Positions 20,666-35,868 of a stretch of DNA of 38,019 nt are shown piece by piece. Position 1 is the stretch's first letter; each line of letters begins with the position of its first letter. The notes below the pieces were generated by a model that saw only the letters and a list, made by a program, of their open reading frames with translations, did not search any database and had not been told where the DNA came from. This stretch comes from a virus: the IMG/VR virus record IMGVR_UViG_2077657019_000001, positions 1-38,019 of that record, one strand, 5' to 3'. A program made the position numbers and the translations under genes.

Positions 20666-21937
20666 TCACCTCACCCTAGGCAAGTCCTCCCACCTAGTCG
20701 TATAAGCCGGTGATAGATGGTCGCGTTTCATTGACCATTGTGGTGTCGTGCCTTGGGCGGCGAAGAAGACGTTACCAAGGCCGCTGTGGTTGATTCGGTC
20801 AACCACTTCCATTAGATGTTTTGCATTGTCGCGTTGAGCGTTAGATCGAAATAAATCAGCCTGAAAGGTGCCGTGTTCGTAAAAGTCGCTAAGCATTACG
20901 CCTGCTTTTGCGTAACGAAACCCCGCTTTGAAAATTCGCCGAAAGAGAACATCGGTGGCTTCTAGCAGGTCTCTCGTATCGTCCGTCGGGTTTGGAAGTT
21001 CAACGCTTAACGAATTGGAATATCGAGGATCATTCGGGTTAAACACACCTGTCCGAATAAACACCTGTACCACTCTTGCGAGCCGCTTCTCCCCTCTTAG
21101 CTTTTCCGCCGCGCGGGTCGTGTATTTGGCAATGGCTTCTCGTAGCTCGGCTTTATCCGTTATTCGGTTCCCAAACGAGCGACTGCATACAATCTGCTTT
21201 TTAGTGGGGGCCACGCTTTCAAGCTCAAGACACGACACGCCATTCAATTCACGGATCGTGCGCTCCAACACAACGGAGAACTCACTTCGTAAAGATTTAG
21301 GGTCGCTGTCTGCGAGATCCAACGCAGTGTAAATGCCTAGCGCTCTCAACTTCTCAGAGATTCGACGACCGACACCCCACACGTCTCCAACCTCCACCAA
21401 TGCCATGAGTTTTCTTTGTCGCTCTGCATTCATTAAATCCACCACGCCACCCGTCGCGGTGTACTTTTTGGCGGCATGGTTAGCAAGCTTGGCAAGTGTT
21501 TTAGTGGGCGCAATGCCGATACCAACCGTAATGCCTGTCCATGTATCAATCTTATGTTTTACACGACGAGCAAAGGCTTCGTAATCTATCGCGGTTTCAA
21601 TGCCTGATAAATCCATAAACGCCTCATCAATCGAATACACCTCAACGCGGGGCGCCTCCTCTTCTAATAGCGTCATTACCCTATTTGATAGATCCGCATA
21701 AAGCGCATAATTCGACGAGAAACAGACAATACCGTGCTTTTCGATCTCGTCTCGAATCTTAAAGACGGGCACGCCCATTTTAATACCGAGCGCTTTTACC
21801 TCTTTTGAGCGCGCGACAATGCAGCCGTCATTATTCGACAACACCGCAACGGGTTTGTATTTTAGATCTGGGCGGAACAGCTTTTCACAGCTTGCATAGA
21901 AGTTATTGCAATCAACCAACGCAAAGACCGTACTCAT
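20666..21937 (-). CDS. umuC: Error-prone DNA polymerase V subunit UmuC
   Basis: This Y-family translesion polymerase bypasses DNA lesions together with processed UmuD and RecA. The N-terminus [20 protein letters not shown] carries the first catalytic Asp (residue 9). [13 protein letters not shown] (SIDE at 102-105) holds the others. [20 protein letters not shown] and [12 protein letters not shown] are the finger and thumb motifs. The 423-residue length matches E. coli UmuC (422). It overlaps umuD by four bases. The pair lies between phage late and early genes and is therefore phage-borne cargo. Confidence 0.96.
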
Positions 21938-22377
21938 CGTTCTATCTTACGCACGACACCAGTGACAACACCAAACACCTCTAAACCGCTTTCTTCCGAG
22001 ATAGGGATAACAGGGTACGCTTTATTACGTGGTCGCAACGCGACAGCAGGCATTAACTCCAATACCTTAACAGTCATTTCCCCATGCACACACGCAATAA
22101 CGATGTCGCCATGTTTAGACGTTAGCGAGCGATCGACCACCAGAACATCCCCGCAATGAATCCCCGCTTCTATCATCGAATCCCCCTGAGCACGTACAAA
22201 AAACGTTGCACTGGGGTGTTGAATGCACAGCTCGTTTAAATCAAGCGTACGCTCAACAAAATCCTGCGCTGGAGACGGAAACCCGGCAGACACAGACTCG
22301 ACATAAAGCGGGATCTGCATCTTGTTCGAAGACAAAAAAGCCGACGATTCCGCCGACCCAAGGTAAGTCACACGCAT
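21934..22377 (-). CDS. umuD: SOS mutagenesis protein UmuD (S24 family)
   Basis: UmuD cleaves itself on RecA filaments and then supports UmuC. With the start at 22377, the product is 147 residues. The cleavage site is Ala31-Gly32 in SVSAGFPSP, Ser67 in QGDSM is the nucleophile, and Lys104 in MTVKVLEL is the general base. An ATG at 22389 also exists, but it lies one base from the LexA box and has no room for a ribosome binding site. The segment beginning MRVTYLGS matches longer UmuD proteins. It is controlled by the SOS promoter upstream and is coupled to umuC. Confidence 0.94.
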
Positions 22378-22390
22378 AGCAAGCACCATA

Positions 22391-22448: not shown

Positions 22449-23024
22449 TTATATCCCATCACCAAAACCCCGTCCTGTTGCGGTTTTCACACGTTCGATG
22501 GTTTGGTCGACCCATGCGGGGTTGGTTTGGATTCTGGCGAGTTGTTGTTGGTAGTTTCGGATGGTTTGGATCATGGCCATGATGTCGGTGGCGGAGACGA
22601 CGGCGATGCTTTCGGTAATGCCTAAAGATTTGGCAACGTCGTTAATGAGTTTGAGTTTTTCGTCGTCTTGGATTGGGGCGGGTAAGCTTTGTTGAATGGG
22701 TTCTGGCGGTTGTTCTGTTTGGGCTTGATCGAAGGCGCGAATTACTTCTAGATTGAACTTCGGGCTGATCCACATGGCGTAAGCATAAACCAGTTCTTTG
22801 CAGACCCAAGTGCCACCGCTTCTACCCTGATTTTTATTTACCGCTAAACTATGCGAATTAGCATAGTTATCAATTTCAGCTATTAATTCTTTTGTTTGTT
22901 GGTTTCTTAGGAACTGAGCGGGTAAATGGCGCGATTCTGAGCCAGACGCTTTATGAAGATCATTAAGGGAATACAATCCGTCGAGTGTGCGGATGTCTTT
23001 TGAAGCAATCATTAAGTGAGCCAT
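22449..23024 (-). CDS. KilA-N domain protein, candidate antirepressor under C4 RNA control
   Basis: This 191-residue protein has an N-terminal KilA-N DNA-binding domain: DGLYSLNDLHKASG, then RHLPAQFLRNQQTKELI, GGTWVCKELVYAYAMWISPKF, and FNLEVIRAFD. A glutamine- and proline-rich linker and a helical C-terminus follow. Such domains are frequent in phage antirepressors. I prefer the second of two adjacent ATGs (23024) because GGAGG then lies six bases away. That ribosome binding site is complementary to a segment of the C4-like RNA encoded just upstream. Its start faces away from umuDC, which lies downstream on the same strand behind its own promoter. Confidence 0.85.
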   Translation of the reverse strand: MAHLMIASKDIRTLDGLYSLNDLHKASGSESRHLPAQFLRNQQTKELIAEIDNYANSHSLAVNKNQGRSGGTWVCKELVYAYAMWISPKFNLEVIRAFDQAQTEQPPEPIQQSLPAPIQDDEKLKLINDVAKSLGITESIAVVSATDIMAMIQTIRNYQQQLARIQTNPAWVDQTIERVKTATGRGFGDGI

Positions 23025-23032
23025 CATTGGCC

Positions 23033-23073
23033 TCCTACGGTCGAAGTTTGACCACCCTAAAGAGGTACTAATC
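23033..23073 (-). promoter_or_regulatory. C4 RNA target sites in the KilA-N leader (a2 and b2)
   Basis: On the minus strand, GATTAGTACC (23073-23064, a2) contains TTAGTAC, complementary to GTACTAA inside C4 copy 1. CCGTAGGA (23040-23033, b2) overlaps the Shine-Dalgarno of the KilA-N gene and is complementary to TCCTACGG in the C4 copy. Two separate antisense matches in the known a/b order of P1 C4 argue strongly for a working switch. Confidence 0.78.
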
Positions 23074-23081
23074 TCTATTAA

Positions 23082-23158
23082 GGTGGTGGATCTAAATCAG
23101 GTTAGTACTACCGCCCGTAGGAACGGCCTAGCCGAAGCTAGCCCAAAATAGACCCACC
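23082..23158 (-). ncRNA. c4: C4-type antisense RNA, copy 1
   Basis: The 77-base minus-strand element is closed by GGTGGGTCT pairing with AGATCCACC. It holds a CTAGC-UUCG-GCTAG hairpin and a CCGT/ACGG stem with TCCT in its loop, and the antisense segments b' (TCCTACGG, 23122-23115) and a' (GTACTAA, 23108-23102). In phages P1, P7 and N15, C4 RNA of similar size blocks translation of the antirepressor operon that follows it on the same transcript. Here the following gene encodes a KilA-N protein and both antisense segments match its leader. Identity rests on structure, matches and context; a covariance-model search would settle it. Confidence 0.8.
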
Positions 23159-23180
23159 ATAACAGGCGGATTTCGGCCAC

Positions 23181-23201
23181 AAAAAAACACGCGGTGCGTG
23201 T
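23181..23201 (-). terminator. Terminator hairpin in leader of C4 copy 1
   Basis: Minus-strand ACACGC ACC GCGTGT is followed by seven Ts and lies between the promoter and the C4 core. Outer CGGCC and GGCCG segments can extend the fold. It may limit or pause transcription into the C4-KilA-N unit. Confidence 0.75.
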
Positions 23202-23263
23202 CTTAGGCCGCTACGGTTAAACGGGGTACTAATCCCGACACTGGATTTTGCCAGTGCAGGGTA

Positions 23264-23294
23264 ATGTTAGTATTAGCTTGAATGCATTTCAAGC
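23264..23294 (-). promoter_or_regulatory. Putative promoter and operator of C4 copy 1 / KilA-N unit
   Basis: Minus-strand TTGAAA (23287-23292), a 17-base spacer and TAACAT (23264-23269) form a promoter whose start would fall at the beginning of the conserved leader. GCTTGAA and TTCAAGC (23276-23294) make a seven-base inverted repeat across the -35 region, a likely repressor site. Copy 2 has the same promoter spacing but lacks this palindrome. Confidence 0.55.
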
Positions 23295-23389
23295 ATTAAG
23301 CCCTTTAATTTAATAAGTGCTATATTAAACGCCATAAAATTTAATACGACGATTACAATGCAAAAACAGTCAGAAAAGGTGTGAAAAGT

Positions 23390-23989
23390 ATGTTCAAGGA
23401 TGCTAGTTGGTGGGTGTGCAGTTTTTTTATTGGGTTATTTTGCTACATGCTAGGGGCTGTCGGAGGAGACATTGCTCTATCCCACATTGCTAGTTTCGCA
23501 GGCATTGTTGCCGGATGCGCCACCGCCTTCGCGGCATTTTTTGCTTATAAATCTTTCAGCACTTGGGAAGAGAGAACAAAAAAACAGCATTTCTTAGAGA
23601 ATAAAACAGCCGCTATTAAAGAGCTTAGCCTTTGCTATGAAATGCATATTTCGGAGCTATTTGTGTATCTTGACGAGCTATATCACTTTAAAAAATACAT
23701 ACGTCAAAATAGAACCCATGATGAAGGGCATAGCAAAAAGGAAGACGATACTAAAAGAAAACTTCAGAAAGTTAATGAAAGTTGGGCCAGATATAAATCT
23801 TCTTTAATTTTCACGCAATCATTCTATACAGAAACGATACTGAATGGCTATCAACCTAATGACCTAATTAGCCTTCAAAAAAGTGTATGTAAAATTGCCA
23901 AAGATGGTGGTTCTTGGGATGGAGAGCTGAGGAATTTTGCAAATGAAGGAACCAAAAAAATCTTAGCATTGTATAATAACCAAGACTAG
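23390..23989 (+). CDS. Unknown two-helix membrane protein, cargo between C4 repeats
   Basis: This 199-residue protein has two N-terminal hydrophobic segments (WWVCSFFIGLFCYMLGAVGG and IASFAGIVAGCATAFAAFFAY), then a long charged helical cytoplasmic domain. It is AT-richer than the phage structural genes and is the only rightward gene between the late genes and the repressor. The start is ATG at 23390 with AAGG about ten bases upstream; a GTG at 23381 is the alternative. Flanking by two same-direction C4 repeats suggests cargo gained by recombination between them. The build, two membrane helices plus a cytoplasmic domain, resembles many superinfection-exclusion or abortive-infection proteins, but no function can be claimed. 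Confidence 0.72.
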   Translation: MFKDASWWVCSFFIGLFCYMLGAVGGDIALSHIASFAGIVAGCATAFAAFFAYKSFSTWEERTKKQHFLENKTAAIKELSLCYEMHISELFVYLDELYHFKKYIRQNRTHDEGHSKKEDDTKRKLQKVNESWARYKSSLIFTQSFYTETILNGYQPNDLISLQKSVCKIAKDGGSWDGELRNFANEGTKKILALYNNQD

Positions 23990-24045
23990 ACCACATCGTC
24001 CAACTTGCCTGTGATTCCCAAAACTAAGGTCTCAATCTCAATAGA

Positions 24046-24123
24046 GGTGGTGGGTCAAATAACAGGTTGAGACTACCGCCCAAAGGTACGGCCTAGCCGA
24101 AGCTAGCCTGATACCGACCCACC
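24046..24123 (-). ncRNA. c4: C4-type antisense RNA, copy 2 (changed specificity, no target gene)
   Basis: The 78-base element folds like copy 1, with a perfect GGTGGGTC/GACCCACC closing stem and the same CTAGC-UUCG-GCTAG hairpin. Its a' segment is GTCTCAA (24073-24067), and the nearby downstream site is TTGAGAC. Compared with copy 1 this is three consecutive compensatory base-pair changes. Its b' region reads ACCTTTGG, and no matching site exists downstream. It is therefore a real but orphaned C4 RNA, or one that acts in trans on another prophage. Confidence 0.75.
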
Positions 24124-24144
24124 ATACAGGCGGATTCCGGCCAC

Positions 24145-24165
24145 AAAAAAACACGCGGAGCGTGT
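24145..24165 (-). terminator. Terminator hairpin in leader of C4 copy 2
   Basis: Minus-strand ACACGC TCC GCGTGT is followed by seven Ts. The stem is identical to copy 1, while the loop differs (TCC instead of ACC), showing that the stem is conserved. Confidence 0.75.
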
Positions 24166-24226
24166 TCTAGGCCGCTACGGTTAAACGGGTACTAATCCCG
24201 ACACTGGATTTTGCCAGTGCAAGGTA

Positions 24227-24255
24227 ATGGTAGATCAGGACGATGGCACGATCAA
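24227..24255 (-). promoter_or_regulatory. Putative promoter of C4 copy 2
   Basis: Minus-strand TTGATC (24250-24255), a 17-base spacer and TACCAT (24227-24232) match the geometry of the copy 1 promoter. Similarity between the two modules stops at this -10, so -35 and upstream control differ. Confidence 0.5.
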
Positions 24256-24593: not shown

Positions 24594-25952
24594 CTATTTA
24601 TTTTCTTTTAATGACTCTGTTTCAAAGTTATTTAAAGGGATATATTCCCAGTCAAGCGCTTGTGAAAACGCGGGAAAAACCTTCTTTAAGGATATTAAAT
24701 ATTTAATAATATTAATGCCTTTTTCGTCCAAAATTTCTATAGCACAACTGATATCACTATGATCACTACTTTCCCCTCCCATTGAGTAGACTAAATAATC
24801 TAAATAGCAAGTCCTTTTCATATTGCTTCGATTCACTGTATTGAAATGATAATCAGGGTATTCCGACATCAAAATTATCTTTTTTTTCTGATGCGACACA
24901 TCAATCAAGTTTACGGACTCAATTGGAATATCGCCTGGATACCTATGACCGTCTGGTCGAGTTGAGAAAACACAGCGATAAACCCCATCATCTTCAATAC
25001 GCAACCTCACAGACAGATAAGTAGAATTCTGTGGTAGTAAACATTTATTAAAGCTCGTGGTTATCAAGCTAATACGTTCAGCGTGAAGGCAGTTTAGTTT
25101 GCGGCCAAATTCACCTCTATTTAACCAAAAGCCTTTCTTAAGTTTTGCAAACTTTTCGCTGTAATCGGCATTAATATTATTAGCCTGCGAAATAAAACAA
25201 CAAAGACTAAAATCTATTTTTTCGAACAAAGTTAGCTCCTCATTGCTCTTAGAGCAATTAAAGAAAGTATATCGAGCACTTTCAAGAGACAGTAAATAGT
25301 TTCGAGGCAAGTCGTCTGGCTCTGGGATAAGGCGACATTCCTCCTTTTGATTTCTGGTAAAGTAGGAAGGCGAATTCTCTGTAAGTGGCTCAAAGGGATA
25401 GCCAAAGACCTCGTCCTGCTTTGGAGTAAAACAGGACGGTTGCTCATCATTCTGTGAATTTGTTAAGCAAGGTTCCGAAATGTTCTGATGTTTATTCTTC
25501 CGCTTGTAGTTGTACACACTATATTTACGACATAAACAATTAGTAATCCATGCTGATGCCATAGCATATAACAAGTAGCATAGTAACATACCTGCGAAGT
25601 CAAGATCGGATAAAACAAGTGCAATTGAGGCTTTACTAAATTTACTAACTTCACTGACTTCACTGACTTCACTGACTTCACTGACTTCACTAACTTCACT
25701 TAGTTCACTAACTTCACTTAGTTCACTAACTTCACTACTATCCTTATTGTACATATTAAGAAAGTTCAGCGTCACAAAAATTAAAGTTGGTAATAGAAAG
25801 ACACTTGATTTTAAAAGAAGAATATTTGTAGAGTGAGAGTTATTAAGTTTGAAATAACTACGTACAAATATAGTAAAAATTATTGGGAGAAACAAAAAGA
25901 AATAATTATTTTCTAGTAAATTACCATAGCTATTAAAAAGTACAATATCCAT
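24594..25952 (-). CDS. Unknown membrane protein with Ser-Glu-Val tandem repeat
   Basis: This protein of about 452 residues has hydrophobic segments near 18-32 and 46-66 and a third near 112-140. A Ser-Glu-Val/Leu tripeptide repeat (about 73-103) lies between the second and third. The remaining 300 residues are soluble and Cys-rich. The start at 25952 has GGGGA about six bases upstream; a TTG at 25964 and an ATG at 25958 are also in frame. It is much richer in A+T than the phage core, pointing to recent acquisition. I recognise no family. Its place in the accessory segment next to cargo and C4 repeats suggests a lysogenic conversion or defence role, which is inference. Confidence 0.68.
   Translation of the reverse strand: MDIVLFNSYGNLLENNYFFLFLPIIFTIFVRSYFKLNNSHSTNILLLKSSVFLLPTLIFVTLNFLNMYNKDSSEVSELSEVSELSEVSEVSEVSEVSEVSEVSKFSKASIALVLSDLDFAGMLLCYLLYAMASAWITNCLCRKYSVYNYKRKNKHQNISEPCLTNSQNDEQPSCFTPKQDEVFGYPFEPLTENSPSYFTRNQKEECRLIPEPDDLPRNYLLSLESARYTFFNCSKSNEELTLFEKIDFSLCCFISQANNINADYSEKFAKLKKGFWLNRGEFGRKLNCLHAERISLITTSFNKCLLPQNSTYLSVRLRIEDDGVYRCVFSTRPDGHRYPGDIPIESVNLIDVSHQKKKIILMSEYPDYHFNTVNRSNMKRTCYLDYLVYSMGGESSDHSDISCAIEILDEKGINIIKYLISLKKVFPAFSQALDWEYIPLNNFETESLKENK
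25648..25737 (-). repeat. Nine-base coding tandem repeat (ten units)
   Basis: Ten head-to-tail units of ACTTCACTG or close variants (plus strand) encode the Ser-Glu-Val/Leu repeat. The first four units are identical and the rest differ mainly in the last base, a typical slipped-strand expansion. Unit length is a multiple of three, so changes alter loop length and not frame. Confidence 0.92.
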
Positions 25953-26043
25953 GAACATCCCCAAAAGAATAAATGAACCTCAAAATTCAATATCTCTCAC
26001 TACAATGTTAGAATACGTCTGTTTCCATGCATTTTGTTAGTTT

Positions 26044-26094: not shown

Positions 26095-27261
26095 TTAAAT
26101 AACACTACATACACAAAATACATCCCCCCACTCTCCCAACGCCCTTTTCATCTGTTCTCTGGAATGGGCGTGCATGTACCGTTTATCCAACCCATCCCGT
26201 TCGTGGTTGAGTAGCATTTCCCCTATTACCCAGTCGATGCCCATGTCTTGCCAGCAGTCACGGGCGAGTTTGCGTATGTCGTGGCTAGTGAATTTGATGC
26301 CGACTTCGTCGCTTAGGCTTTGATACCAACGCTCTAAAGTGCGTATGGCATAGGGTTTGTCGCCGTTGGAAGAGAAGATATAGTCGCCGCGCTTTGGCAG
26401 TGTGTGTATGAGGTCGTAAGCGTGTTGGGTGATCGGGAGCCGGTGCTCGGTGTTGTTCTTGGTGTTTTCTTCGGGAATGCTCCATTCCAATGGCGCGTTG
26501 GAAAATTGCTTCCACTCTGCGAGCGATGTCTCCCCTATTCGGGTTGCGTGGAGCAGTTGCGTCATGAAGAACACGCGCTTTTGTGTCGGCTGGCCGTTTA
26601 TGGCTTTTATCAATGCCTTTAAGTCGTGAGGTTTCAGTTTGCCGGGCTTGGCTTCGGGCTGTGTGGTGGTGAAGCTGCTAAAGGTGATGTCTGCAATCGG
26701 GTTTCTGGCAATCAACCCTAGTTCGTATGCGCGGGCGAATGCGGTTTTTAATACACTTATTACACCTTTTATCGTTGAAAGCGCGTAATCGGCCTGCATA
26801 GGCATGTAGAGCGTTCTGTATAAGCGTGTTTTGTTTAACTCGCTTAGGGTCGCCTCTGAGAGCTTAGCAAGCAAGTGATTGCCAATGTAGCTCGACGCGG
26901 TAGAAACGTATGAGACGGAGTACGTTTTGTCGGCATCGATATGTTGCATAAACCACATGAGCACTTCTCCCGCTGTATGATACGTAGAGACGGCAAGGCG
27001 CGCTTTACGATCGGCCAACGCATTGGCACGGATCGCGGGTAACTCTTGAAACAAACTCGCGGCGGTGATCGCTGGCCATTTGGCAAGCTTGGTACGTTGG
27101 CGCTTTTTCCCTTTGTATACGACATCGTAAAAGGTGCCACCCGTGCGGGCGGCATTGATGTGGAATTCGACTCGGCGGGAGTCGTAGAGGTATCGCACCT
27201 CTTTTTTAAACGCCGCTCGAATCGATGCGTCGGTTATTTTCTTCGTTACAGCTTTGGTCAT
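26095..27261 (-). CDS. Internal tyrosine recombinase (integrase family)
   Basis: This 388-residue protein has the full catalytic set: Arg241 in ATRIGE, Lys268 region, His327 and Arg330 in SHDIRK, His353 in LLNHE, and Tyr362 in KRYMHAH. The N-terminal part (about 90-190) looks like a core-binding domain. It is not the dusA-proximal integrase and lies about 8 kb inside the prophage, next to the replication genes and the AT-rich accessory block. It could serve phage genome resolution, or it could be left from a nested element. It overlaps the upstream gene by four bases, so it is part of the early operon. Confidence 0.88.
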   Translation of the reverse strand: MTKAVTKKITDASIRAAFKKEVRYLYDSRRVEFHINAARTGGTFYDVVYKGKKRQRTKLAKWPAITAASLFQELPAIRANALADRKARLAVSTYHTAGEVLMWFMQHIDADKTYSVSYVSTASSYIGNHLLAKLSEATLSELNKTRLYRTLYMPMQADYALSTIKGVISVLKTAFARAYELGLIARNPIADITFSSFTTTQPEAKPGKLKPHDLKALIKAINGQPTQKRVFFMTQLLHATRIGETSLAEWKQFSNAPLEWSIPEENTKNNTEHRLPITQHAYDLIHTLPKRGDYIFSSNGDKPYAIRTLERWYQSLSDEVGIKFTSHDIRKLARDCWQDMGIDWVIGEMLLNHERDGLDKRYMHAHSREQMKRALGEWGDVFCVCSVI

Positions 27262-31404: not shown

Positions 31405-31949
31405 GCGCTAAGGCTAAACCTTGCTTCAAGCGTACGAAGTAAGGTAAAACAGTCAATTACCTCAATACCAAAATGTTTACATACATTAGGTACTTTTACT
31501 TTGGTTGAGTTTTCAGCAACTAGCTTTTCGTGAGTGACTACAGCAACTTCCCCACCCAATTCCTTTATTGACATTGCTTTAGAAATTATCCAAGGGTCAG
31601 CGCCATCCAAGAAGCTGTCTCTATTAGCCTCATTTAAGTGCGGTTGATCCATTAAATATTCCACAACTTCTACAAAGCAATTTTGTGTTAAGTCGTCCTC
31701 ATCATCAATGAAATGCTCATCGCGTTCTTTAACCCAAAGACTAAGTTTGTCCTCTTGCTTTTGAGTTTCACCAGCTCTGGCTTTCGCTGGCTTCGGTTGT
31801 TTCAGCTCTTTTTGAACTTGCTTAATTGACGTTATTTGGCCACTTTTGTACGACTTGTCTAAGAATGCCCAAAATCCAGGACAAAAATCCATATCGTAAT
31901 AAGACCCTTGTGCCTGAATGTAAATATTCGCATCTAGTAAGTACAGCAT
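31401..31949 (-). CDS. DUF4411 family protein, PIN-like putative toxin or nuclease
   Basis: This 182-residue protein starts LYLLDANIYIQA, the first acidic motif of PIN-like nucleases. It also has QITSIKQVQKEL, a second acidic motif in DGADPWIISKA, and AVVTHEKL near the end, the DUF4411 pattern. Such genes usually pair with an ImmA/IrrE gene that also carries an XRE domain, as here: its start overlaps the stop of that gene by one base. It is probably a toxin partner or an effector in phage-phage competition. It converges with cI, overlapping by four bases. Confidence 0.8.
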   Translation of the reverse strand: MLYLLDANIYIQAQGSYYDMDFCPGFWAFLDKSYKSGQITSIKQVQKELKQPKPAKARAGETQKQEDKLSLWVKERDEHFIDDEDDLTQNCFVEVVEYLMDQPHLNEANRDSFLDGADPWIISKAMSIKELGGEVAVVTHEKLVAENSTKVKVPNVCKHFGIEVIDCFTLLRTLEARFSLSA

Positions 31950-33073
31950 TAAATACCTAGTTCCTTGGCTAAATTTTTTACGTTTAAAGGCTTGGTGCCT
32001 AATAAATGCCCTGCATCGCGCAGTAACATACGTCCGCTTAGTGCTTCGGATACAACTGCACTAGCAAAACTCTTTCCAAGCCGAGAAATTTTGGTCGTAT
32101 AGTAAGATGGCCCACCATTGGAGTTACGCTCATGATCTTTCTTGTAGCTTTCGATCATTGAGTAATATTGAGCTTCCGTAATCAACCCTAGCGTTAACGC
32201 CCTTCTGACAATAACCCATCGACTCACATGGAAATGCTTAGCAATTGCACTAACATGTAGTCGCCAATCTTTCTCAATCCAGACTTGAAGGAATTCATCT
32301 TCTGGTACTAGAAACTCAGCGGCAATTGCGTTGCATTTGGCTTCTTCTTTACGATGGTTGCTTGGACTAACATCTGAAAGGCCGCTCTGACCGATCCAAA
32401 TGTGAGCCAACTCATGAAGCATGGTGAAAAGTTGCGCCGTTTGCGCATCTGCACTGTTAATAAAAATAACTGGGGCAACGTCATCACAGATAGCAAAACC
32501 TCGAAATTCTTGAACTAATAGCGGTTTACTTTTCCCACCAAGGTCTCGTTCTCTCATTACCATTATGCCCAACTTCTCAATGTGTTGGCGCACAACTCTT
32601 TCATAATCATCCCATCTACCTGAACGTTTCGCTGGCAATGAAAGCCTGTTGCGCATATCAGCAACGACCGAAGACGTATCACTATCCATAGTAAATTGAG
32701 TTATAAAGGAATTCTCAAGCTTAAGGTTATCTTTACGATATTCCTTATACCACTCTTGGCGCTCTAACACTTTTCGGATTATTGCTATCAAAGAAGCGCT
32801 AGGTTTTTGTAGCTCTCTTCCATCAATAGTTCGTAAATCTGGTATTGGTAGATCGTCGGCTGGCGGCTGCTTGGCAAAAAGTAAACCGAAAGAAATTAAG
32901 GTTTTATCTGCAATATTTCTGGCTTGTGCCATAGATGGCGCATTTTCACCATTTTCCCAAGCTATTACTTTTTCCTCCTTAACACCTAAGGCATCTGCGA
33001 GTTGAGACACAGACATACCCGCACGCACGCGCGCCCAAATAATATTGGCAGGGTTAATAAGTGCTTTGCTCAT
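31949..33073 (-). CDS. XRE-ImmA/IrrE metallopeptidase fusion, DUF4411 partner
   Basis: This 374-residue protein joins an N-terminal helix-turn-helix (ARVRAGMSVSQLADALGVKE, about 14-55) to a zinc peptidase domain with FTMLHELAHIW (HELAH at 220-224) and EFLVP with a likely third ligand Glu253. ImmA/IrrE proteases cut repressors, and the fused DNA-binding part probably represses its own operon. I start it at the ATG at 33073. The longer frame to 33145 would read through TATACT, a probable promoter -10. It lies next to cI, so cleavage of a repressor is a possible second induction route. Confidence 0.86.
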   Translation of the reverse strand: MSKALINPANIIWARVRAGMSVSQLADALGVKEEKVIAWENGENAPSMAQARNIADKTLISFGLLFAKQPPADDLPIPDLRTIDGRELQKPSASLIAIIRKVLERQEWYKEYRKDNLKLENSFITQFTMDSDTSSVVADMRNRLSLPAKRSGRWDDYERVVRQHIEKLGIMVMRERDLGGKSKPLLVQEFRGFAICDDVAPVIFINSADAQTAQLFTMLHELAHIWIGQSGLSDVSPSNHRKEEAKCNAIAAEFLVPEDEFLQVWIEKDWRLHVSAIAKHFHVSRWVIVRRALTLGLITEAQYYSMIESYKKDHERNSNGGPSYYTTKISRLGKSFASAVVSEALSGRMLLRDAGHLLGTKPLNVKNLAKELGI

Positions 33074-33145
33074 AGTAGATAAACCTAGATAGATAATTCT
33101 TAAAGTATAGCCAAAGAAAGGAGGTCGAAAAGAAAGCCAATCCAT

Positions 33146-33334
33146 GACTGTAGACAGATTAAAACTTAACTATAAGCGTCTTGGCAATACATTCAGCATT
33201 AAATAGATAAAAAACGAAATTTTTAAATTTACACAAACAACATAAGAAATCTGCATAACAACTTTTTAGTGTTGACTAAACCTAATATTTGGTTGTATAT
33301 TTGTCTAACACTTTACAACCAAAGGATAGGAATC
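33146..33334 (+). promoter_or_regulatory. Promoter and dyads of the csrA operon
   Basis: TTGACT (33272-33277), an 18-base spacer and TATATT (33296-33301) form a rightward promoter. TTTAGT GTTG ACTAAA (33265-33280) is a perfect dyad over the -35. GGTTGT and ACAACC (33291-33296 and 33315-33320) flank the -10 and share half-site bases with the CI/Cro operators. The rest of the spacer, 33146-33260, is AT-rich without a visible gene. Confidence 0.62.
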
Positions 33335-33523
33335 ATGCTTGTAATCACACGTAAACTTGGCGAAGTAATCAACATCGGTGACGACATCGAAGTCACTGTC
33401 TTAAGTGTTAAGGGGAATAGCGTGCGCCTAGGCGTTGAAGCCCCCAAAGAAACTACAATCCATCGAGAAGAAATCTATAAGCGAATCCAAGCTCAAAAAG
33501 CCTTGGATGCGGAAGTAGCGTAG
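33335..33523 (+). CDS. csrA: Carbon storage regulator CsrA/RsmA, phage-borne paralogue
   Basis: This RNA-binding protein regulates translation by binding GGA motifs in mRNA leaders. It is a 62-residue form with [20 protein letters not shown], then [19 protein letters not shown] and HREEIYKRI, including the RNA-contact residues near Leu4 and Arg44. The start is ATG at 33335 with AGGA upstream; longer frames cross the promoter. It lies inside the prophage beside regulatory genes, so it is a phage copy that could reprogram host Csr targets. Its own leader contains two GGA-type sites next to the start. Confidence 0.93.
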
Positions 33524-34207: not shown

Positions 34208-34556
34208 AACGTTATTTTTACTAATGGCTGAGTTTGAGGGGCGAACGGCAGTCCCGCTTGCTGAGGCCTTGCATTACACAAACTACACAACCCTAGCAGA
34301 AGCCAACAAAGCTGCTAATGCAGCAACATTGTCTATTCCTGCATTTCGTATGGCGGATTCACAAAAGAGCCCGTATATGGTTCATTTGGAAGATCTGGCT
34401 GTTTGCATCGATGCAGCGCGCAAAAAAGCGATGGAGAGCAGTTATTTGCTCTCTGGTAAAGCGCCGATTATCGAGAGAGCGTCTAAAAATCCCCCGCCTG
34501 TTATTTCTAATAGACGAGGCAGACGAGAAAAAGCTACGGTGATGGCTGGCCAATAA
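34197..34556 (+). CDS. PrtN family protein (pyocin activator / excisionase-like)
   Basis: This 119-residue DNA-binding protein has the PrtN pattern: TLFLLMAEFEGRTAVPLAEA and then LSIPAFRMADSQKSPYMVHL with EDLAVCIDAARK. In Pseudomonas PrtN activates pyocin genes after DNA damage. In prophages, relatives next to the integrase are thought to act as excisionases or activators. It lies directly before the integrase, converging with it and overlapping its 3' end by 23 bases. Both roles are possible here. Confidence 0.85.
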   Translation: MTSKTLFLLMAEFEGRTAVPLAEALHYTNYTTLAEANKAANAATLSIPAFRMADSQKSPYMVHLEDLAVCIDAARKKAMESSYLLSGKAPIIERASKNPPPVISNRRGRREKATVMAGQ

Positions 34557-35676
34557 GCCCAGCCTCACCAAGCTCTTTACCCAATACTGAATATTTGTCG
34601 TAATAACCTGCTTGGGTTAAATGCGTATATCGAGCAAGATTTGACCAGCTTCGATGCCCTGAAACCATGCTTACCTCTGGCACACTGAGTTGTAGCTCAA
34701 ATAGATGACTCACCCCTTCGTGCCGTAGATCGTGAAACGTTAAATCTTCTATATCAGCCCAGCGACACGCTCTTTGAAATGCGGCACCTATTGTACTTTC
34801 AGCATACGGAAATATCCGAGACTCACCTTCTACTTTAGGCTGTTTTTCGATCAATTTAATTGCGCGGCGCGGAAGAAACAATGTCATATTGTTCCCTATT
34901 TTTTTACGAGGATGCTTCATGTCTTTGACGAGAATGGTTCCCTTCAGTGCATCAAGGTCATTCCATTCCAATCGAACGATCTCTCCTAAACGACGCGCTG
35001 AAAACACGGCAAATAGTACGATGTCGTCGAGAGGTGTTTTAAATTCAGACATGCGACCTTTGCCATTTTTTTCCCTGTGCTTGTATGAACAGATTTTTTG
35101 CAGTTCGTCATAAGTCGGTCGTCGGTCTCGGCATGTTGAACGATCGACGATGCCAAGCTGAGAAGCAACGCCTGATGCGTCCTCTATCTCTTGTAGGTTA
35201 ACCGGTATTGACCAGGCAACTCTTGCATATTTGGCTAACACTCGAATGTACGCTAAATCTTGAAGTACTGTTGCAGGTTTAGCGTTGTCCTCGTCATGAC
35301 GTTTTCGTAAATAATTCAAAATATCAGACGCTGTTATTTCTGCTAAAGCAATCGTAGATAATATGGGCTCTTCACTCATTAGCCTCATTGTTCCACGCTT
35401 TGTCTTACCTAAAGGTTTCGGTACGTTTTCATGCTCTTTTAGATACCTTGCCATAGCCTGCGCAATCGATAAATCAGACAATGACTTTCCATTTGCCAAC
35501 AGTTTTTTAACTTCGGCTTCTCTATTTGCTGCCCACAATCGAGCATTTTTTTCAGCACCACGCCCTTCAAAGCTTTTAGCCTCACTAAAAGCTTGCACTC
35601 CAGCTTTCATTATTCGAATCTGAGCAGAGTGAACAACTGTCCCATCCTTTTTTTTCCTAGTTTTAAATGTAGCCAT
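34534..35676 (-). CDS. int: Prophage integrase (tyrosine recombinase) at dusA
   Basis: This 380-residue integrase has an N-terminal arm-binding region (MATFKTRKKKDGTVVHSAQI), a core-binding domain (about 65-165), and a catalytic domain. The catalytic residues are Arg229 in ARRLGE, Lys254 region, His315 and Arg318 in HDLRHEG, His341 in GHRSW and Tyr350 in LARYTHL. It lies less than 200 bases from the start of dusA, a known integration site, with its own start facing dusA. I use the ATG at 35676; the longer frame to 35850 covers a large palindrome and no ribosome site. Confidence 0.93.
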   Translation of the reverse strand: MATFKTRKKKDGTVVHSAQIRIMKAGVQAFSEAKSFEGRGAEKNARLWAANREAEVKKLLANGKSLSDLSIAQAMARYLKEHENVPKPLGKTKRGTMRLMSEEPILSTIALAEITASDILNYLRKRHDEDNAKPATVLQDLAYIRVLAKYARVAWSIPVNLQEIEDASGVASQLGIVDRSTCRDRRPTYDELQKICSYKHREKNGKGRMSEFKTPLDDIVLFAVFSARRLGEIVRLEWNDLDALKGTILVKDMKHPRKKIGNNMTLFLPRRAIKLIEKQPKVEGESRIFPYAESTIGAAFQRACRWADIEDLTFHDLRHEGVSHLFELQLSVPEVSMVSGHRSWSNLARYTHLTQAGYYDKYSVLGKELGEAGLIGQPSP

Positions 35677-35742
35677 GCTGGTTAGCATCCTTGTAAGTAT
35701 GTGACATAATAGAGCGACAAAATCTGGTGTTATGCGTTGCTG

Positions 35743-35814
35743 GTGTAAAAAAATTACACACCAATACATAGGCTTCTCAACAAGCAATTTACTACAAAGA
35801 TTTTTGTAGTAAAT
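35743..35814. promoter_or_regulatory. Strong palindromes between integrase and dusA
   Basis: ATTTACTACAAA and TTTGTAGTAAAT (35787-35798 and 35803-35814) form a perfect 12-base inverted repeat with a four-base centre. GTGTAA and TTACAC (35743-35759) form a smaller one with five As in the middle. They could be int operators, integrase arm sites, or a PrtN-like protein target. A T-tail is absent on both strands, so a simple terminator is less likely. Confidence 0.6.
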
Positions 35815-35868
35815 GAGTAGCAACATACTACCTAGAACGCCAAAAAACACCCAATAACAGACTTAAAT

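Follow-up and report, generated by a model that had tools for sequence, protein, structure and literature searches.

Two C4 antisense RNA modules of different specificity in a Marinomonas prophage, one of them without an antirepressor gene

The C4 antisense RNA of phages P1 and P7 (Rfam family RF01695) was reportedly described by Citron and Schuster in 1990. According to later accounts, C4 acts in trans to block synthesis of the antirepressor, and heteroimmunity is set by its loops (PMC8546580, PMC12197685, PMC5320573), a loop difference of about 4 nt being enough to make P1 and P7 heteroimmune (PMC5320573, PMC12197685). In the Salmonella prophage Gifsy-1, IsrK (IsrK/STnc1160, RF01394) has been shown experimentally to pair with a C4-like region of its own transcript (PMC4825925). 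The Group 1 C4-like sRNAs of Acinetobacter baumannii are described as numerous in one genome, variable in their a' loops, highly expressed and processed, and the authors suggested incoming phages, or host RNAs, as their possible targets (PMC5320573). C4 heteroimmunity is thus known from P1 and P7, and an anti-phage role for C4-like RNAs has been suggested before.

Here we analyzed the whole 38,019-nt stretch of IMG/VR virus record IMGVR_UViG_2077657019_000001, hereafter the window, which carries two C4 modules. Their fold and their a' and b' loops are those of the P1/P7 system, as are, in copy 1, the a2 and b2 sites at the ribosome-binding site and a putative antirepressor downstream. However, P1 and P7 each have a single specificity, whereas the window prophage holds two specificities, one of them without an antirepressor. 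The arrangement of Gifsy-1 is also similar, with an isrK leader and terminator followed by a complementary, processed C4-like RNA and then the regulated gene (PMC4825925), but Gifsy-1 has a single cognate set, whereas the second leader of the window mismatches the C4 that follows it. The A. baumannii RNAs are likewise C4-shaped with variable a' loops; the accessible text gives no cognate phage target or prophage module for them (PMC5320573), whereas in our case a donor-type phage with matching a2 and b2 was identified and the RNA lies beside a resident C4 operon. The CI RNA of P4, with seqA and seqC, resembles the window modules as an untranslated leader RNA pairing with sites before and after itself (PMC4825925), but it has a single specificity and controls termination before replication genes, not an antirepressor. 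In the literature searched, which covered few subscription papers, we found no prophage described as carrying an additional C4 of foreign specificity together with an identified target.

Two C4 modules in one Marinomonas prophage

The window is a prophage within a complete 4.68-Mb Marinomonas chromosome (G028), to which it was matched by identical scores and spacing, and the chromosome has just two C4s, both in this prophage. Among 49 Marinomonas genomes, 22 contained a C4 above the cut-off, and the leader pattern matched 20 stretches of Marinomonas genomes and another ten of viral contigs. Four loci with the same synteny as the window (L003, L004, L238 and L239) hold a single module between an integrase gene and a KilA-N gene, and the cargo upstream of the module differs among them. 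Searches of the window modules against a phage database and E. coli genomes gave no matches.

Consistent with the preliminary description, the two C4 modules run in the same direction; both lie on the minus strand, 964-965 bases apart, and exceed the Rfam gathering scores for C4 (RF01695, 45) and isrK (RF01394, 50). The E values of the C4 and isrK matches, from 5e-8 to 4e-12, ruled out chance similarity. Read 5' to 3' on the minus strand, each module consists of a promoter-like site, isrK leader hairpins with a terminator, the C4 and a2; the features given below are on this strand unless stated otherwise.

Copy 1 continues after a2 with b2 and a KilA-N gene and has the structure of a complete isrK-C4-antirepressor operon. 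Its promoter-like site (TTGAAA-17-TAACAT, 23264-23292) was found by a consensus scan, and the segment upstream resembles that of prophage L216 of genome G038 (local score 49 over 72 nt). An inverted repeat, GCTTGAA-5 nt-TTCAAGC, covers the -35 element (23276-23294); it is a possible operator and is absent at copy 2. The isrK-type leader/terminator RNA (23182-23257, 66.2 bits) is followed by the C4 RNA (C4-1; 23079-23164, 56.2 bits), a2 (TTAGTAC, 23065-23071) and b2 (CCGTAGG, 23034-23040), which overlaps the Shine-Dalgarno sequence of the downstream gene. This gene (22449-23027) encodes a KilA-N domain protein (Pfam PF04383, E 6.8e-23), is conserved in relatives and, lying directly downstream of a2 and b2, is the putative antirepressor gene ant. 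The a' loop (GTACTAA, 23102-23108) is complementary to a2 at 7/7 positions and the b' loop (CCTACGG, 23115-23121) to b2 over 8 nt, and b2 co-varies with b' in relatives. In the leader, the a1 core (23226-23232) and b1 (CCGTAG, 23211-23216) are complementary over 7 and 6 nt to the C4 that follows on this transcript. Neither leader reached the gathering score of the c4-a1b1 family (RF03163, 46.7), copy 1 scoring 38.9 bits and copy 2 31.5, so a1 and b1 were assigned by complementarity.

Copy 2 is the upstream one. Its promoter-like site (TTGATC-17-TACCAT, 24227-24255), which the consensus scan missed and which we infer from the sequence and alignment, has the form usual in relatives (in L003, TTGACC-17-TACTAT). 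It is followed by an isrK-type leader (24146-24220, 58.9 bits) whose a1 core (TTAGTAC, 24189-24195) and b1 (CCGTAG, 24175-24180) have the specificity of copy 1, then by the C4 RNA (C4-2; 24043-24129, 54.7 bits), with b' CCTTTGG at 24080-24086 and a' GTCTCAA at 24067-24073, and by a2 (TTGAGAC, 24029-24035), complementary to its own a' at 7/7 positions. Similarity to relatives ends shortly after a2, and both b2 and the antirepressor gene are absent. The preliminary description of a duplicated module thus holds as to two C4 modules, but copy 2 is no plain duplicate: it is not a complete C4 operon, and its RNA is still a C4 by score and fold. Both RNAs are predicted to fold into the C4 shape (-36.6 kcal/mol for C4-1 and -35.6 for C4-2). 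Both also have GG on the 5' side of the outer stem, a feature bearing on the RNase P processing to about 77 nt that characterizes C4 RNAs.

The a' and a2 sequences were as first reported for both copies, and a1 GATTAGTACC is indeed kept in both leaders. A second pairing site, b1/b'/b2, had been missed; it follows the same logic as a1/a'/a2, with the same b1 in both leaders and a different b' in each C4. The earlier observation that only C4-1 matches both leaders therefore extends to the two sites: in a as well as in b, C4-1 fits both leaders and C4-2 fits neither, so that the copy 2 leader does not match the C4 of its own transcript.

Between the modules lies a convergent cargo gene on the plus strand (23381-23989), which encodes a probable membrane protein of 202 aa. 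Its homologue in G038 lies in the corresponding position (33% identity, E 4.5e-21); no Pfam family matched the protein, and the phage collection contained no relative of it. Elsewhere in the window, a prophage-borne umuDC-like pair (S24 peptidase and Y-family polymerase, 20666-22389) adjoins the KilA-N gene, and a 456-aa open reading frame on the minus strand (24594-25964), with no Pfam match, contains a short tandem repeat of SEV/SEL units at 25640-25740. There are two integrase-family genes (26095-27261 and 34534-35850), the second abutting a dihydrouridine synthase-like gene that could plausibly serve as the attachment site. The prophage also carries genes for a protein with HTH and IrrE-like metallopeptidase parts (31949-33145) and a CsrA homologue (33269-33523).

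Specificity classes and the make-up of copy 2

The joint variation of a' and a2 held across the C4 family. The a' loop matched its own a2 at 7/7 positions in 113 of 137 non-redundant C4s, compared with 3.8% when partners were swapped, which excludes changes of a' and a2 that do not keep pairing; a2 and b2 were both matched in 102 of the 137 (1.05% when swapped). Pairs between a1 and a' were Watson-Crick in 79% of cases, against 49% after shuffling and 21-31% after sliding; here both partners were set by position only, with some register errors that lower the observed pairing. The three middle a1-a' pairs occurred as G-C, A-T, C-G and T-A. Because of this covariation across C4 loci, we regard the specificity classes as inherited features of the family, and TTGAGAC, the class of copy 2, is common in it.

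We then compared copy 2 with its relatives. The 106-nt block comprising its C4 and a2 is identical at 104 positions to L199/L239 (G006, Marinomonas sp. TW1) and at 100 to L238 (G038), but at only 87 to copy 1, indicating that C4 and a2 were exchanged as a block. The leader shows the reverse, with 78 of 81 positions identical to copy 1 and 76 to L199. Among the leaders listed, the stretch GTTTAACCGTAGCGG is confined to the two window copies, and this common a1-b1 tract suggests gene conversion of the leader.

The alignment with L199 ends at a2 of copy 2. Directly after it comes the 3' remnant (23986-24009) of a homologue of the YafO-family toxin gene that adjoins the 202-aa-protein homologue in G038, ending in GKLDDVV and a stop. 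In L238 the YafO-family protein (PF13957, E 1.1e-8) has the same last residues in different codons, and its gene overlaps the convergent homologue by 4 bases, as at the copy 2 junction. From this position of the remnant, the antirepressor end of an L199-type module was most likely deleted into the cargo gene. Judged by sequence, copy 2 is a hybrid with a copy-1-type leader, a foreign C4 and a2, and a deleted antirepressor; the order of the events that formed it is one that we infer.

Possible function of copy 2

We somewhat favor the reading that copy 2 is the source of a C4 acting in trans to silence heteroimmune relatives. Copy 1 would be the working isrK-C4-antirepressor operon of the prophage, in which C4-1 would silence the KilA-N antirepressor through a'-a2 and b'-b2 pairing at the ribosome-binding site. 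Copy 2 would be an accessory module without an antirepressor, its C4 and a2 derived from a heteroimmune sibling of type a TTGAGAC / b CCAAAG. Expressed from its own promoter and processed, C4-2 would be bound by neither resident leader, would leave the resident antirepressor unaffected and, acting in trans, would shut down the antirepressor of incoming sibling-type phages.

L199 provides a cognate target phage: its module is complete, combining a2 TTGAGAC and b2 CCCAAAGGAGG with an intact KilA-N ant. L226 is a second Marinomonas target whose a2 and b2 C4-2 fits. The predicted pairing of the C4-2 loops with the L199 target is -9.2 and -14.3 kcal/mol. Since the a' duplex is predicted to be at least as strong with the target region of copy 1 (-9.9) as with L199 (-9.2), the predicted discrimination between targets rests on b'. 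C4-2 has no antirepressor of its own, yet its fold and promoter spacing are kept. Independent cases of antirepressor-less C4s in other phages (see below) and the pairing shown by experiment in Gifsy-1 also speak for this reading. A global target search was not discriminating, as 63% of random a'/b' combinations hit some target, and only same-clade matches were kept as target evidence for orphan C4s. Because C4 modules also decay in Marinomonas, our confidence in an immunity effect of C4-2 is moderate.

Such decay underlies the main rival explanation, which we consider possible but rather doubtful: copy 2 may be a recombination relic, the remainder of an older sibling-type module left after a new segment of cargo and module arrived beside it, with subsequent deletion of ant, gene conversion of the leader and no present function. 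The junction, running from just past a2 directly into the last codons of the YafO-family gene, is what such a history would leave, and so is the a1-b1 tract held in common with copy 1 only. L073 has a comparable deletion that runs from its C4 stem into ant, other Marinomonas modules have decayed, and the tandem modules of L105 likewise share a leader. Against a relic, C4-2 and its a2 differ from those of L199 at just 2 of 106 bases, with a normal fold and promoter-like hexamers kept; moreover, antirepressor-less C4s recur in unrelated phages, in one clade with variation concentrated in the loops (see below).

It seems improbable that the leader is the active part of copy 2, either as an IsrK-type RNA that titrates C4-1 and tunes ant induction or as part of a transcript antisense to the membrane-protein gene. 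Leader 2 is predicted to pair with C4-1 at -11.1 and -11.4 kcal/mol, IsrK of Gifsy-1 activates its downstream gene in trans (PMC4825925), and read-through from copy 2 would be antisense to 23381-23989; but this account leaves the retention of a near-identical foreign C4 unexplained, and such a role is impossible for the orphan C4s of L146 and its relatives, which have no leader. A recent duplication within the prophage followed by three compensatory point changes in copy 2, as the preliminary description had proposed from the same spacing and stems and the joint change of a' and a2, is very unlikely, as b' changed too, the block departs from copy 1 at 19 of 106 positions, and the near-identity of the block to another prophage refutes it unless L199 derived from the window locus. 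In-place mutation was rejected on that identity, and the compensatory pattern reflects an inherited specificity class rather than three new mutations.

Multiple and antirepressor-less C4s in other loci

Co-resident C4 units of diverged specificity also occur beyond the window. We compared 21 loci with more than one C4 within 10 kb, and in none did two C4s share both a and b. A full cross-match between co-resident C4s was seen in 0 of 55 cases, with a chance expectation of about 0.4 over 34 comparable pairs; because chance predicts nearly none, this is no evidence of selection. The search of related prophages suggested by the preliminary description did find paired modules: three Marinomonas prophage contigs (2840639839, 2834254687 and 2770939628) each have 2-3 complete modules of differing specificity. 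Tandem sets also occurred in L043 (two modules), L105 (three), L068 (four) and L284/G310 (four). Module 1 of L105 is like copy 2 in having the leader specificity of another module (module 3) with its own C4 and a2.

C4s without an antirepressor were found repeatedly. In four related loci (L075, L141, L146 and L150), a leaderless C4 lies just upstream of the resident promoter; its variable columns number 10 of 20 in the loops, 3 of 52 in the scaffold and 12 of 228 in the flanks, a concentration in the loops (10/20 versus 15/280 elsewhere; Fisher p 2.7e-7). Two of these orphan C4s fit the a and b sites of a sibling phage (L141 those of L051, and L075 those of L241). Upstream of the resident module, fifteen further related contigs combine a constant isrK-like leader with differing antirepressor-less C4s, which is the architecture of copy 2. 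In this group, the orphan C4s of L247 and L248 have the very types that are resident in sibling contigs, and most others have weak or partial targets only. An antirepressor-less C4 also precedes the resident module in L071, and two in tandem do so in L116 (1-650, minus strand). The resident module of L116 has relatives on E. coli plasmids that carry a protelomerase gene (phage N15-like).

More broadly, we tentatively propose that temperate phages may keep accessory antirepressor-less C4s as an RNA immunity repertoire, in which a constant scaffold, often with a constant leader, sits upstream of the resident operon and recombination swaps the two targeting loops to match sibling phages. If so, about 90 bases of RNA would add immunity to a competing phage type without its antirepressor. 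This would explain the exchange and accumulation of specificities among C4-phage immunity groups and would give many C4-like RNAs of unknown role a testable function.

Some loci showed other states of the module. In Marinomonas, L073, L162, L174 and L237 look like products of deletion or mutation. Further modules, in L163, L170 and L230, seem mismatched or decayed. The four modules of L284/G310 have four different a' sequences and short downstream reading frames, those of modules 1 and 3 extending into the next promoter. The promoters of this array (L284 1500-3400, contig 9 of G310) are near-identical, and it lies beside a DUF927 gene and an integrase gene, giving it the look of a P4-like satellite.
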